NCBI GenBank assembly: GCA_945971245.1
Contig: CAMFOZ010000004.1
Coordinates: 1-34,530, forward strand
Direction: 5' to 3'
Source: an uncultured Lactobacillus sp.
GTDB taxonomy: Bacteria; Bacillota; Bacilli; Lactobacillales; Lactobacillaceae
DNA: 34,530 nt
Shown: one piece after another, positions 2,780 through 8,320 of the stretch
Layout of the letters: every line of letters begins with the position of its first letter
Numbering within the stretch: position 1 is the first letter of the stretch
Translations under genes and position numbers: made by a program
The notes under the pieces: generated by a model
Told to the model about the DNA's origin: nothing
Database searches by the model: none
What the model saw: only the letters and a program-made list of their open reading frames with translations

Positions 2780-3667
2780 ATGGCATTTCAAAACATAACA
2801 ATTGCCGGAACCGGTGTCCTGGGTAGTCAAATCGCCTACCAGACGGCACTCAACGGCTTTAAAGTTACGGCGTATGATTTAGATGTCGATGCCGCCAAGC
2901 AGCGGGTATTGGCGTTGAAGGACAGTTACAAGCGTGATCTGGACCTGACCGATGAAGACTTCCAAGCTGGACTAAACAACCTGACCTTTACGACCAATCT
3001 AGAAGAGGCGGTTCAAGACGCTGATTATGTTATCGAAGCTTTGCCTGAAGAACTGTCGATCAAGGCAGATTTTTATAAGCAGCTCTCAAAGTTAGCTACA
3101 GCTAAGGCGATCTTTGCCAGCAACTCGTCGACAATGGTCCCAAGTCAGCTGGTAAAGTACGTTGACCGGCCACAGAAGTTCCTCAACATGCACTTTGCTA
3201 ATATGATTTGGAAGTGCAACGTTGCTGAAATTATGGGAACGGACCAGACGGATCCAGCCGTTTACCAAGCAGTAGTTGACTTTGCTCGGGCCATCAAGAT
3301 GGTACCGATCGAGATTCACAAGGAGCAACCAGGTTATGTCTTAAATTCTCTGTTGATCCCGTTTGTTGTTAGCGCCATGAGCTTGTGGGTTAAGGGAGTA
3401 GCTGATCCGGAGACCGTCGATAAGGATTGGATGATCTCAACCGGGGCTCCAGTCGGTCCATTCATCATGCTTGATGATGTCGGTCTGCGGACGGTCTGGA
3501 ACATCGTCAACGAGCTTTATGCGACCCAACATAAGGAACTGTTCAAGCAGATTGCCGATAAGTTAAAGGAAAAGATTGATGCCGGTCAAGAGGGCCTTGA
3601 ATCCGGAGAAGGCTTCTACAAGTACCCGCATCCGGCCTTTGAAGATCCAGACTTTCTTAAGAAATAG
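2780..3667 (+). CDS. 3-hydroxyacyl-CoA dehydrogenase family protein, copy 1
   Basis: A 295-residue protein of the 3-hydroxyacyl-CoA dehydrogenase family: an N-terminal Rossmann domain (PF02737 type) and a C-terminal helical domain (PF00725 type). The dinucleotide motif GTGVLG is at 10-15, and the acidic D33 at the end of strand 2 fits NAD+. A catalytic His/Glu dyad is present as H138 and E150, with SNSS at 114-117. The usual HFFNP is here HFANM, so the substrate pocket differs from classical HbdA/FadB. No thiolase or enoyl-CoA hydratase is nearby, so beta-oxidation or butanoate synthesis is unlikely; a small hydroxy acid could be the substrate. ATG follows TAGGAGG. Confidence 0.85.
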   Translation: MAFQNITIAGTGVLGSQIAYQTALNGFKVTAYDLDVDAAKQRVLALKDSYKRDLDLTDEDFQAGLNNLTFTTNLEEAVQDADYVIEALPEELSIKADFYKQLSKLATAKAIFASNSSTMVPSQLVKYVDRPQKFLNMHFANMIWKCNVAEIMGTDQTDPAVYQAVVDFARAIKMVPIEIHKEQPGYVLNSLLIPFVVSAMSLWVKGVADPETVDKDWMISTGAPVGPFIMLDDVGLRTVWNIVNELYATQHKELFKQIADKLKEKIDAGQEGLESGEGFYKYPHPAFEDPDFLKK

Positions 3668-3678
3668 GGGCGAAAATT

Positions 3679-4569
3679 ATGACATTTAAGAATATTACGG
3701 TTGCTGGTGCAGGGGTTTTAGGTAGCCAGATTGCCTATCAGACTGCCCTGAGTGGTTTTAAGGTAACGGTATATAACCATCACATTGACACGGCCCAACG
3801 GCGAATCACAGCTTTGAAGAAGGACTACCAGCGTGATCTGGGGCTGAGCGATGAAGAATTTCAGGCAGGCTTGGATAATATTGTTAACATCACAACCGAC
3901 CTGCAGGAAGCGGTCCAAGATGCTGACTATGTTATCGAGGCGCTGCCAGAATCACTGCCTCTCAAGGAGAAGTTCTACACGGAACTGTCCAAACTGGCAC
4001 CTGCCAAGACGGTCTTTGCAAGCAACTCATCTTCCTTTGTACCGAGCCAGTTGGTGAAGTACGTTGATCGGCCGGCAAAGTTTCTTCACATGCACTTTGC
4101 TAACAAGATCTGGCGCTTCAATGTTGCCGAAATCATGGGAACTGACCAAACAGATCCGGCGGTTTACCAGGAGGTTGTTGATTTTGCCCGGGCGATTAAG
4201 ATGGTGCCAATTGAAGTTCATAAAGAACAACATGGCTACGTCCTCAATGCGGTTTTGATGCCGTTGATTGGGGCGGCCTTACAGCTGTGGGCTAACGGGG
4301 TTTCTGACCCGCACACCATTGATAAGGATTGGATGATCTCAACCCATTCACCAATGGGACCGTTCATGATCCTCGACATGGTAGGTCTCCGGACGCCACT
4401 ACAGATGGAAGACAACCTATATGAAGCGACCCATGCGGAAATCCACAAGCAGATTGCCGATAAGCTGAAGGCGATGGTTGACGCTGGTCACGTTGGCCAG
4501 GAATCGGGACAAGGGTTCTACCATTACCCACACCCCGAGTTTGAAGATCCGTCTTTCTTACGGGCATAG
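3679..4569 (+). CDS. 3-hydroxyacyl-CoA dehydrogenase family protein, copy 2
   Basis: A 296-residue paralogue of the preceding gene, 11 bases downstream and clearly from a tandem duplication (long identical stretches such as GSQIAYQTAL and VAEIMGTDQTDPAVYQ). GAGVLG lies at 10-15, and the dyad is H139 and E151. Copy 1's acidic D33 is replaced: the strand-2 end reads YNHH, which removes the usual NAD+ ribose ligand and adds basic side chains. This suggests, but does not prove, altered cofactor preference. The active-site motif is HFANK. It is cotranscribed with copy 1 and ends at a strong terminator. Confidence 0.85.
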   Translation: MTFKNITVAGAGVLGSQIAYQTALSGFKVTVYNHHIDTAQRRITALKKDYQRDLGLSDEEFQAGLDNIVNITTDLQEAVQDADYVIEALPESLPLKEKFYTELSKLAPAKTVFASNSSSFVPSQLVKYVDRPAKFLHMHFANKIWRFNVAEIMGTDQTDPAVYQEVVDFARAIKMVPIEVHKEQHGYVLNAVLMPLIGAALQLWANGVSDPHTIDKDWMISTHSPMGPFMILDMVGLRTPLQMEDNLYEATHAEIHKQIADKLKAMVDAGHVGQESGQGFYHYPHPEFEDPSFLRA

Positions 4570-4590: not shown

Positions 4591-4625
4591 CAGCGGTACT
4601 GTCGGTTGACAGTGCCGCTCTTTTT
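4591..4625 (+). terminator. Terminator after the dehydrogenase pair
   Basis: AGCGGTACTGTC (4592-4603), loop GGTT, GACAGTGCCGCT (4608-4619), then CTTTTT. One mismatch in a 12-base-pair stem. Confidence 0.9.
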
Positions 4626-4642
4626 GCGATGACTGCCCACGT

Positions 4643-4656
4643 ATTTCCCGGGAAAT
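4643..4656. promoter_or_regulatory. Noc-binding site (NBS)
   Basis: ATTTCCCGGGAAAT is identical to the palindromic Noc-binding sequence described in Bacillus subtilis; the palindrome extends to 16 bases (4642-4657). It lies between the terminator and the promoter of the operon that encodes Noc itself. Confidence 0.7.
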
Positions 4657-4684
4657 AATAATGTTAAGCAGTGGGTGCTGGCGG

Positions 4685-4713
4685 TTGAAAGTGGGGCGCT
4701 TTTACGGTACAGT
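4685..4713 (+). promoter_or_regulatory. Promoter of the rsmG-noc-parAB operon
   Basis: TTGAAA (4685-4690), exactly 17 bases, TACAGT (4708-4713). Predicted start near 4720, just before the hairpin at 4724. Confidence 0.6.
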
Positions 4714-4723
4714 AATAAGGTAA

Positions 4724-4747
4724 CGTGAAACAATTTGCTGTTTCACG
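4724..4747. repeat. Hairpin of everted parS-like half-sites
   Basis: CGTGAAACA (4724-4732) and TGTTTCACG (4739-4747) are perfectly complementary around a 6-base loop. Each arm contains a half of the parS consensus (TGTTTCAC/GTGAAACA), but the halves point outward and are separated by 6 bases, so it is not a standard parS. In RNA it makes a 9-base-pair stem at the predicted 5' end, directly before the rsmG ribosome site. Confidence 0.6.
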
Positions 4748-4760
4748 AAAGGAGGATCTG

Positions 4761-5486
4761 ATGAATCCAGAACAATTTCAACAGGCGTTAGCGGATCGCG
4801 GTATCACGCTGACCGCTAAACAGCTAGAACAATTTGCAACCTACTATCGGATGCTAGTTGAGAGCAACAAACATGTTAACTTAACACGGATTACTGACCA
4901 GGATGAGGTCTACCTGAAGCACTTTTATGATTCTATTACTGGGGCGCTGGCTGAGCCACGTCTGCAGACAGAGCAGCTGACCCTGTGTGATATCGGTGCT
5001 GGTGCCGGTTTTCCATCGCTACCACTGAAGATTGCCTTTCCGCAGCTTAAGGTGACGATCGTGGACTCACTTAATAAACGGATTACTTTTCTTGAAGAGC
5101 TAGTCGCCAAATTGGGATTGTCCGACGTGGAATTAGTTCATGATCGGGCAGAGACGTTTAGCGCCAAGAAGAGTACTCACCGGGAACAATTTGACGTAGT
5201 GACGGCCCGGGCAGTAGCTCGCTTGGCAGTTTTAAGCGAATTGTGCCTGCCGGCTGCTAAAGTTGGTGGTGAGTTTATTGCTTACAAAGCACTGGCGGCA
5301 CCAGAAGAGCTACATGATGCTACTAAGGCGATTGCTAAGCTTGGTGGTCAGGTTCGCCAAACGGTGAAATTGACGCTGCCAGGGACGGATGATGAGCGTA
5401 ACATTATCCTGATCGATAAGACGGCCCCAACACCACAGAAATACCCACGGCGGCCGGGATTACCGAACAAGAAACCAATTCAATAG
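4761..5486 (+). CDS. rsmG: 16S rRNA (guanine-527-N7)-methyltransferase RsmG
   Basis: A 241-residue SAM-dependent methyltransferase (formerly GidB) that methylates G527 in the 530 loop of 16S rRNA. The SAM-binding glycine loop [10 protein letters not shown] is at 77-86, and the family-typical N-terminal HVNLT precedes it. Length is normal. The ATG at 4761 is set by GAAAGGAGG at 4747-4755; the frame is open upstream but that extension would run through the hairpin. It is the first gene of an rsmG-noc-parA-parB operon, as in Bacillus and other Firmicutes near oriC. mnmE/mnmG, often its upstream neighbours, are absent here. Confidence 0.95.
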
Positions 5487-5503: not shown

Positions 5504-6451
5504 ATGCCATTTTCACTATTTAACTTTGGTAAAAGTGATTCAAATAATAAGAATAAGGTTGTCGATATTAAACTAGACCAGATTATTCCTAACCGCTATC
5601 AACCACGGAAGGTCTTTAACCAGGATGAGATCCGTGAGTTAGCTCATACGATTGAGGAACACGGGCTGTTACAGCCAATCGTCCTTCGGGAATACGAACC
5701 GGCAAAGTACGAGATTATTGCAGGTGAACGGCGTTATCGGGCAATGAAGCTGCTGGGCTGGGAGACGACCCCGGCTATTCTCAGGAAAATGACGGATGAG
5801 GAATCGGCATCGTTGGCGCTGATTGAAAACCTTCAGCGGGCCCAGCTGAGTTCCGTAGAAGAGGCCCAGGCTTATCGGCAATTAATGGACCTTAACCACC
5901 TGACTCAGGCGGCTCTCGCCAAGGGAATGGGGAAGAGCCAGTCCTTTGTTGCCAACAAGTTACGTTTGCTTAAGCTGATCACTCCTGTTCAGACGGCCAT
6001 TCTTGATCACCGGATTTCCGAGCGTCACGGGCGGGCGCTGCTTGACCTGGATGAGAAACAACAGCGGACCATGCTGATGCGAATCGTCAATGAGCACCTG
6101 ACAGTGCGGCAAACGGAAGATGAGGTTGCCAAGGCCCTGGGACGGCCAGTGCCATCAGAAGTTGCTAAACAGAAGAAGCTGGCTAAGGAGCAGGCAACAA
6201 TGACGGCGGCGCCAACAAGCGCTGAAGCCGAGCCCACCAAAAAACCGGCAAGGAAGGCCAAAAAGAAATCAACAAAGAAGAATAAGTCAACAGCGAAGAC
6301 GAATGCTAAGGCTGCTGATGGACGCTTGGCATTAAATACGATTAAGAAATCGATTAAGATGGCAACGGAAAATGGCTTTAAGGTTACTACCCACGAGAAG
6401 GAAATGGGGAATGCCTACCAGTTGACCATCGAGATTCCAAAAGAGCAGTAA
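5504..6451 (+). CDS. noc: Nucleoid occlusion protein Noc (ParB paralogue)
   Basis: A 315-residue ParB-family CTPase/DNA-binding protein. In Bacillus, Noc spreads from NBS sites and keeps the division septum off the nucleoid. The short N-terminal MPFSLFNFG resembles the membrane-targeting amphipathic helix. The CTP-binding box AGERRYRA is at 73-80, the ENLQR motif at 108-112, and the helix-turn-helix at about 134-156. The C-terminal dimer domain starts near 273 and ends TIEIPKEQ. Between them (about 221-272) is an unusually long, Lys/Ala/Thr-rich linker. Assignment as Noc rather than ParB rests on position between rsmG and parA, on a true ParB downstream, and on the perfect NBS upstream. Confidence 0.88.
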   Translation: MPFSLFNFGKSDSNNKNKVVDIKLDQIIPNRYQPRKVFNQDEIRELAHTIEEHGLLQPIVLREYEPAKYEIIAGERRYRAMKLLGWETTPAILRKMTDEESASLALIENLQRAQLSSVEEAQAYRQLMDLNHLTQAALAKGMGKSQSFVANKLRLLKLITPVQTAILDHRISERHGRALLDLDEKQQRTMLMRIVNEHLTVRQTEDEVAKALGRPVPSEVAKQKKLAKEQATMTAAPTSAEAEPTKKPARKAKKKSTKKNKSTAKTNAKAADGRLALNTIKKSIKMATENGFKVTTHEKEMGNAYQLTIEIPKEQ

Positions 6452-6463
6452 GGAGGCAATAGG

Positions 6464-7237
6464 ATGGGCGCAGTAATTGCGTTAGCAAACCAAAAAGGTG
6501 GCGTTGGAAAGACCACGACCAGTGTAAATCTGGGCGCCTGCCTTGCTGACCTAGGGAAACGGGTATTGTTAATCGACCTTGACCCCCAGGGAAATGCCAC
6601 CAGTGGCCTGGGGATCGAAAAGCGGCAGATTGAAAAGAGTGTCTATGATGTGTTGATCGATGAGGAAACGATGCTCAAGGACGTCATTAAGCCTTCTAGT
6701 CATCCGGGCCTTGATATTGCCCCGACGACAATCGCACTCTCGGGGGCAGAAGTCGAACTGACTAATTTAATGGCGCGGGAGACGCGGCTCAAGGACTCCT
6801 TTGGGACGATCAGGGATGATTACGACTTTATCCTGATCGACTGTCCACCATCGCTGGGTCTACTGACGATCAATGCCTTCACGGCGGCTGACTCGGTACT
6901 CATTCCGGTCCAGAGTGAATACTATGCGCTGGAGGGGTTGAGTCAGTTACAGAACACAATCAACCTGGTTAAACGACACTTTAACCCGCGGATGAAGATT
7001 GAGGGGGTCTTGCTGACGATGTATGATAAGCGGACTAACCTCGGTCAACAGGTCAATGCGGAGGTGCGGAAGGCCTTTGGTGATCGTGTCTATGAGACCG
7101 TGATTCCCCGGAATGTACGGCTGTCGGAGGCCCCGAGCCATGGCTTGGCAATTGTCGACTACGACAAACGGTCGACGGGGGCTCACGTGTATGAACAATT
7201 AGCAAAGGAAGTGTTGGCAAAACATGGTAAAGCGTAA
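6464..7237 (+). CDS. parA: ParA/Soj chromosome partitioning ATPase
   Basis: A 257-residue Walker-type ATPase (Soj) that acts with ParB-parS in origin segregation and, in Bacillus, regulates DnaA. The deviant Walker A KGGVGKTT with its signature lysine is at 11-18, LIDLDPQGN begins near 36, and the Walker B region LIDCPPS surrounds D126. Length is that of chromosomal Soj, without the N-terminal HTH of plasmid ParA proteins. ATG follows AAGGAGG. The end overlaps parB by 14 bases, which implies coupled translation. Confidence 0.95.
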   Translation: MGAVIALANQKGGVGKTTTSVNLGACLADLGKRVLLIDLDPQGNATSGLGIEKRQIEKSVYDVLIDEETMLKDVIKPSSHPGLDIAPTTIALSGAEVELTNLMARETRLKDSFGTIRDDYDFILIDCPPSLGLLTINAFTAADSVLIPVQSEYYALEGLSQLQNTINLVKRHFNPRMKIEGVLLTMYDKRTNLGQQVNAEVRKAFGDRVYETVIPRNVRLSEAPSHGLAIVDYDKRSTGAHVYEQLAKEVLAKHGKA

Positions 7238-8111
7238 AACGGGTGCCCTGGGCCGCGGGATCGAGGCCCTCTTTGAGGAAAATACCATTGCGACTCCGGA
7301 CGAGGGTGAGCAGGTCCAAGACATTAAGCTGACGGCCATCCGGGCCAATCCTTACCAGCCCCGGCGGACCTTTGATCAAGCGGCCCTTAAAGAATTGGCT
7401 GCCTCGATTGAAAAGTCGGGGGTTTTCCAGCCGATTATTTTACGGCAGCCGGATCCACAGCTGGAACGCTATGAGCTGGTAGCCGGTGAACGGCGATTCC
7501 GGGCATCAAAGCTTGCCAAGCAGTCGACGATTCCCGCAATTGTGCGGACGATGAGCGACGAGCAGATGATGGAGATTGCCGTCCTGGAAAACCTGCAACG
7601 TGAGGACTTAACTCCTCTTGAAGAGGCCCAGGCTTATCAGACCTTGATGGAAAAATTGTCTCTGACCCAGGCCCAAGTCGCTGCTAAGCTTGGTAAGAGT
7701 CGGCCTTACATTGCCAACTACCTACGCTTGTTAGGCCTGCCTGCGCCGATCAAGGAGGCCCTGAACGCTGGTAAACTGTCAATGGGGCAGGCCCGGACGA
7801 TTTTAGGACTGAAGAATAAGCGGCAGTTGACCCAGCTGGCTAACCGGGCGGTGAAGCAAAATCTGACGGTTCGGCAGCTGGAAAAGATCGTTGCCCAGAT
7901 GAACGGGACCGTCAAAGAGAAGGATCAACATAAGCGGCAACGCAAGCCGGTCTACATTCGGGAGGCCGAGAACCAGCTTCAGAGTAAGTTCGGTACCAAG
8001 GTCGCGGTTTCCCAGAGCCGGAAGCACGGCAGTGGAAAAATTGAGATTCCGTATAACTCAAACGATGATCTGACCAGGATCTTAGAACTGCTTGATATTT
8101 CACTCGATTAG
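7224..8111 (+). CDS. parB: ParB/Spo0J chromosome partitioning protein
   Basis: A 295-residue ParB CTPase that loads at parS, slides along DNA and recruits SMC. The N-terminus KTGALGRGIEALF is the family segment that stimulates ParA. The CTP-binding box GERRFRA is at 88-94, LENLQRE at 121-127, the helix-turn-helix at about 148-171, and a C-terminal dimer domain follows. It starts inside the parA end and is translationally coupled. No canonical parS was found in the window, although Bacillus carries one inside spo0J. Confidence 0.95.
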   Translation: MVKRKTGALGRGIEALFEENTIATPDEGEQVQDIKLTAIRANPYQPRRTFDQAALKELAASIEKSGVFQPIILRQPDPQLERYELVAGERRFRASKLAKQSTIPAIVRTMSDEQMMEIAVLENLQREDLTPLEEAQAYQTLMEKLSLTQAQVAAKLGKSRPYIANYLRLLGLPAPIKEALNAGKLSMGQARTILGLKNKRQLTQLANRAVKQNLTVRQLEKIVAQMNGTVKEKDQHKRQRKPVYIREAENQLQSKFGTKVAVSQSRKHGSGKIEIPYNSNDDLTRILELLDISLD

Positions 8112-8122
8112 GAGGGATGACA

Positions 8123-8320
8123 ATGGCAAGTTATGATAAGGGCGATATCGTGATGATGAAGAAGGCCCACCCGTGTGGCAGCAACCGCTGGGAAATTACC
8201 CGGGTCGGCGCTGACATCAAGATTCAATGTCAGGGCTGTGGCCACGTTGTGATGATGACCCGGCAAAAGTTCGACAAGGGCCTCAAGAAGGTCATTGAAA
8301 AAGCCCATCCGGCAGAATAA
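8123..8320 (+). CDS. DUF951 family protein (YyzM-like)
   Basis: A 65-residue protein of the DUF951 family, found widely in Firmicutes between parB and ychF. The sequence MASYDKGDIVMMKKAHPCG shows the conserved beginning, and IQCQGCGHVVMM carries a CxxC that might bind zinc. I chose the ATG at 8123 because AGGAGGG (8110-8116) lies seven bases upstream; the ATG at 8117 is too close to it. The ribosome site overlaps the parB stop, so it belongs to the same operon. Function is unknown; a nucleic-acid or ribosome-related role is only a guess. Confidence 0.88.
   Translation: MASYDKGDIVMMKKAHPCGSNRWEITRVGADIKIQCQGCGHVVMMTRQKFDKGLKKVIEKAHPAE

Follow-up and report, generated by a model that had tools for sequence, protein, structure and literature searches.

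In Bacillus subtilis, the nucleoid occlusion protein Noc recognizes a 16-bp palindrome, the Noc-binding site (NBS), whose sequence TATTTCCCGGGAAATA forms the core of an NBS oligonucleotide, GGATATTTCCCGGGAAATATCC, in the work of Jalal et al. 2021 (PMC8429893), and four residues (QKKR) switch the specificity of ParB-family proteins from parS to the NBS (PMC7383237). About 70 bound sites cover most of the B. subtilis chromosome, they are biased towards the origin and leave the terminus free (PMC4331003). ParB proteins can also recognize less than a full parS site. The ParB of Pseudomonas aeruginosa binds hundreds of scattered half-parS sites (GTTTCAC/GTTCCAC) without spreading (PMC10419367, PMC7022226), however, no half-parS binding by the B. 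subtilis ParB was detected in a survey (PMC7022226), hence, half-site binding appears to be species-dependent. Furthermore, in the rsmG-parA-parB region of Mycobacterium bovis BCG a ParB site lies in the gidB (rsmG) promoter, where a full inverted parS overlaps the -10 box and autoregulation by ParB was proposed (PMC2346475). Finally, KorB of plasmid RK2, a CTP-dependent clamp of the ParB family, represses transcription both from afar and from OB sites situated 4-10 bp in front of promoters (PMC11790492). The regulation of par and noc genes on chromosomes is little understood, although their dosage is important.

The stretch of DNA analyzed here (the window, 34,530 nucleotides) belongs to a Limosilactobacillus near L. 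pontis; its Noc shares 100% identity with the Noc of the MAG UBA639, 93% with that of a Lactobacillus MAG and 85% with that of L. pontis. The operon order rsmG-noc-parA-parB given in the first-pass annotation is borne out by protein family matches for rsmG, encoding the 16S rRNA G527 methyltransferase (4761-5486; TIGR00138, PF02527), noc (5504-6451; TIGR04285 with 324 bits at a cut-off of 315), parA (6464-7237; PF13614) and parB (7224-8111; TIGR00180, PF23552). These genes on the plus strand are closely spaced or overlapping, and a gene for a small DUF951 protein (8123-8320, plus strand; PF06107, 101.8 bits) follows as the last one before ychF. Noc carries all four NBS-specificity residues (Q146, K152, K157 and R174), while R160 and G188 of ParB correspond to parS-type specificity. 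From the sequence and the comparison among loci, the promoter of the operon was assigned to a -35 box TTGAAA (4685-4690) and a -10 box TACAGT (4708-4713, kept as TACAGT or TAAAGT among loci) on the plus strand with a spacing of 17 bp, and the transcription start was deduced from these boxes. The Shine-Dalgarno sequence AAAGGAGG of rsmG is found at 4748-4755 on the same strand. Upstream, a 3-hydroxyacyl-CoA dehydrogenase gene ends in an intrinsic terminator (4592-4624, plus strand), which consists of a 12-pair stem (stem-loop 4592-4619) followed by CTTTTT. Two adjacent genes of this kind, tandem duplicates that are both PRK08293 equivalogs, occupy positions 2780-4569.

The NBS is situated in the short gap between this terminator and the -35 box, where it lies 22 bases downstream of the stem-loop. 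The motif ATTTCCCGGGAAAT at 4643-4656, which had been called an exact Noc target, shows no mismatch and is the sole match with fewer than three mismatches in a scan of the window; its flanking bases complete it to the full 16-bp NBS (4642-4657, assigned to neither strand), identical to that of B. subtilis. Together with the QKKR signature of Noc and the conservation of the site in place, this finding supports a true NBS. The location upstream of the -35 box is likewise correct, but the distance is 28 bases from the 16-bp form and not 29. According to base composition, 0.00014 exact NBSs are expected per window and 0.008 per genome. The genome-wide count that had been suggested as a check revealed 11 exact copies compared to none of the reversed control, and at least one exact NBS occurs in all 54 Limosilactobacillus genomes searched. 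The roughly 70 bound sites of B. subtilis thus compare to approximately 11 exact sites here. The genome of the window is split into 203 contigs, and the origin-terminus map was made on eight complete congeners. Their 77 exact NBSs lie on average at an origin-to-terminus fraction of 0.31 (KS p = 8e-7), the largest NBS-free gap spans the antipode in 7/7 genomes with more than one site, and rsmG lies at a fraction of 0.08-0.15 in seven of the eight. In these congeners the terminus is thus spared as in B. subtilis, and the earlier view of an origin-proximal loading site is supported.

At the rsmG position, the NBS was found with 0-1 mismatches in 20 of 50 Limosilactobacillus loci. It occurs on each of the two deep branches of Limosilactobacillus, with four changes on the RsmG tree. 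L. panis and L. oris have both the NBS and the half-site pair described below, and L. reuteri has the pair only. When the 17 distinct promoters were aligned on the NBS, identity reached 97% inside the site and only about 30% on either side. The preservation of the site while its flanks have drifted indicates that it is under selection, and the comparison argues for a genuine NBS. The first-pass annotation had regarded absence in close relatives as evidence against its reading. In this regard the result is divided, because the nearest relatives keep the site while many more distant ones are without it. Among other genera, no NBS with up to two mismatches was detected within 400 bp of rsmG at 100 loci, with the single exception of a 2-mismatch match at -295 in G064. 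In one Limosilactobacillus locus (L028, genome G183), the rsmG start codon abuts the stop codon of the upstream dehydrogenase gene, thereby the promoter, the NBS and the half-sites described below are gone; this genome contains only one exact NBS.

The simplest reading of the rsmG NBS is that of an ordinary Noc loading site, one of about 11 in the genome, rather than a dedicated operator. We infer that Noc would nucleate here, load as a CTP clamp and spread, and the spread protein would carry origin-side DNA to the membrane, such that division is blocked over the nucleoid. Genomes with an rsmG NBS have more NBSs elsewhere (median 10.5 vs 8, p = 0.0025, uncorrected for relatedness), which fits a site that belongs to a larger set. 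Taken alone, the NBS is an ordinary new example of an already known kind of site, and any effect on noc transcription would be an unproven side effect. Alternatively, Noc bound at the NBS might slide or spread over the promoter, repress rsmG-noc-parA-parB and in this way sense its own level, as the first-pass annotation had proposed. The NBS indeed occurs in the promoter region of the noc operon, which distinguishes it from the B. subtilis comparison, it is strongly selected 11-28 bp upstream of the -35 box, and its geometry resembles that of KorB (PMC11790492). The distance to the -35 box is fairly tight at 25-28 bp in 16 of the 20 loci, which would be compatible with a promoter role, but it is 11-15 bp in the other four, i.e., there are two spacing classes about 15 bp apart. 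When 89 NBS neighbourhoods, taken from eight complete genomes and that of the window, were grouped according to how similar their neighbouring genes are, eight other clusters proved common to 4-6 genomes compared to four for the rsmG NBS (with one mismatch in G077), though such cluster counts are approximate because the grouping may merge paralogous loci. The rsmG NBS is therefore no better conserved than these eight. Moreover, 58 of the 89 NBSs are intergenic, and their gaps (39 tandem, 11 convergent, 8 divergent) give no sign of promoter preference. The 30 Limosilactobacillus loci without the site include genomes with 10-14 NBSs elsewhere, and other genera with a QKKR Noc also lack it here. 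Hence, autoregulation by Noc is not specifically favoured and appears rather unlikely.

A second element of the same promoter was missed by the first-pass annotation and, according to our comparison, is far more widely conserved than the rsmG NBS. Just after the -10 box, positions 4725-4746 read GTGAAACA-ATTTGC-TGTTTCAC, which corresponds to two parS halves facing outward across a spacer of six bases. The two putative ParB half-sites, both TGTTTCAC, lie at 4725-4732 on the minus strand and at 4739-4746 on the plus strand. The exact everted pattern with a spacer of 1-12 bases was found in 76 of 151 Lactobacillaceae genomes, almost always once, compared to one match for the control, and among the 75 exact matches listed, 64 stand in front of rsmG at a distance of 13-52 bases. 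When the pattern was relaxed to GTGRAAC-N0-20-GTTYCAC, 114 of 150 Lactobacillaceae rsmG loci had it, a count that leaves out seven order-level loci because these had been picked by the pattern itself. Outside the Lactobacillaceae and family f3, seven of eight Lactobacillales genomes have the pair, each time at rsmG. It was not found in 17 genomes of f3, probably the Streptococcaceae, nor in the sampled members of g2, g6, g7, g16, g18, g26, g28, g29, g32, g39 and g40. Beyond the Lactobacillales it was not detected at rsmG, the matches there being in parB of family f27 or at unrelated loci. Ten genera with the pair have sampled operons lacking noc, which points to ParB and not Noc as the likely reader, and g28 (one genome), the sole genus without parB at the locus, is also without the pair.

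Collectively, we consider it reasonably probable that the NBS serves mainly as a Noc loading site, while the everted half-parS pair is a ParB operator that damps rsmG-(noc)-parA-parB. The operon thus probably regulates itself through ParB by means of the pair. We infer that ParB would bind the half-sites within the first approximately 30 transcribed bases and that the bound protein would reduce transcription of the operon. Owing to the everted order, ParB would be unable to form a closed sliding clamp at the half-sites, and because of this the protein would stay local. The heptamers GTTTCAC/GTTCCAC bound by the P. aeruginosa ParB are the same as the conserved arms (PMC10419367, PMC7022226), but each genome here has a single everted pair, fixed in the promoter of the ParB operon, instead of hundreds of scattered half-sites. 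The M. bovis BCG site shares the location in the rsmG promoter, however, the half-sites here are everted, lie downstream of the -10 box and belong to another phylum (PMC2346475). KorB provides a precedent for repression by a ParB-family clamp, but it is a plasmid protein acting with the co-repressor KorA, and its sites and specificity differ from those considered here (PMC11790492). The missing half-parS binding by the B. subtilis ParB counts against a ParB operator, as does the remaining ability of this sequence to fold into an RNA hairpin (z = -2.6). No report of the leader element was found in a literature search largely outside subscription papers, which is weak evidence of novelty. The pair represents an order-wide and directly testable candidate for ParB autoregulation. 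It would also allow one to ask, in a natural setting, if the orientation of half-sites determines whether ParB represses locally or spreads as a CTP clamp. It is conceivable, if unlikely, that one promoter reads both proteins, with ParB repressing through the everted pair without clamp closing across the Lactobacillales and Noc adding feedback via the NBS in part of Limosilactobacillus. In such a case, nucleoid occlusion and origin segregation would be coupled to their own gene dosage.

The inverted repeat could instead form a 5' RNA hairpin that stabilizes the message or tunes its translation. It folds into a 9-bp stem (-14.8 kcal/mol, z = -2.57), the length of the loop is variable, and one locus (L092) shows a compensatory change, GTGGAAC/GTTCCAC. 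However, a paired RNA stem as the target should select against A-C, and this impossible RNA pair is seen in 11 of the 97 unique elements (five genera) at arm position 4, compared to G-C in one (Fisher p = 1). In g25 and g11, natural arm changes disrupt the RNA pairing and retain the half-sites. Hence, one compensated element faces 11 uncompensated ones. C-A occurs at the outer pair in 29/97, and at both variable positions the two arms vary independently. Furthermore, conservation extends to the sequence of the stem, which is that of parS, including its variability: the arms vary at the very base where parS variants and the parS consensus TGTTNCACGTGAAACA are degenerate (PMC2346475). Independent arms that vary at this base look like a DNA operator bound by ParB and not like an RNA hairpin, and the GTTYCAC heptamers appear to owe their conservation to a function in DNA, not to pairing in RNA. 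The position is also tied to the -10 box, 10-11 bp downstream of it in 66 of the 97 elements, and not to the start codon, as the distance to the ATG ranges from 9 to 51. No Rfam family matched the rsmG leader. An RNA hairpin is thus improbable.

That some unrelated dimeric regulator, for example Rex or a protein of the CRP type, uses the repeat as its operator is highly improbable. The GTGAA...TTCAC arms are similar to the operators of such proteins, but these regulators need a fixed spacing, and here 2-16 bp separate the 7-bp arms. The repeat is also essentially single-copy at the parB operon only, and its arms equal parS half-sites, degeneracy included. ParB, in contrast, could bridge variable spacers, as its DNA-binding and dimerization domains are separate. 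Finally, the chance of the NBS match being an accidental palindrome is negligible, since nothing beyond the shortness of the site favours it, the 11 copies found far exceed the expected number, and it is already refuted by the conservation in place on drifted flanks.

The element at 4725-4746 was rejected as a full parS centromere site, because its half-sites are everted and spaced, and no full TGTTNCACGTGAAACA, in which the half-sites are adjacent and face inward, occurs in the window with up to three mismatches. Four complete Limosilactobacillus genomes (G045, G077, G152 and G182) have no parS within one mismatch and keep ParB as well as the everted half-sites. In eight genomes of the non-Lactobacillales family f27 (L211-L218), a full parS inside parB is joined to an extra half-site at 6-bp spacing, GTGAAACA-N6-TGTTTCACGTGAAAC. 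As a further observation, the residue equivalent to T179 of the Caulobacter ParB is a tyrosine in every genus with the everted element and a different residue in most genera without it (g2, g6, g7, g16, g18, g29 and g39), which may reflect shared ancestry.
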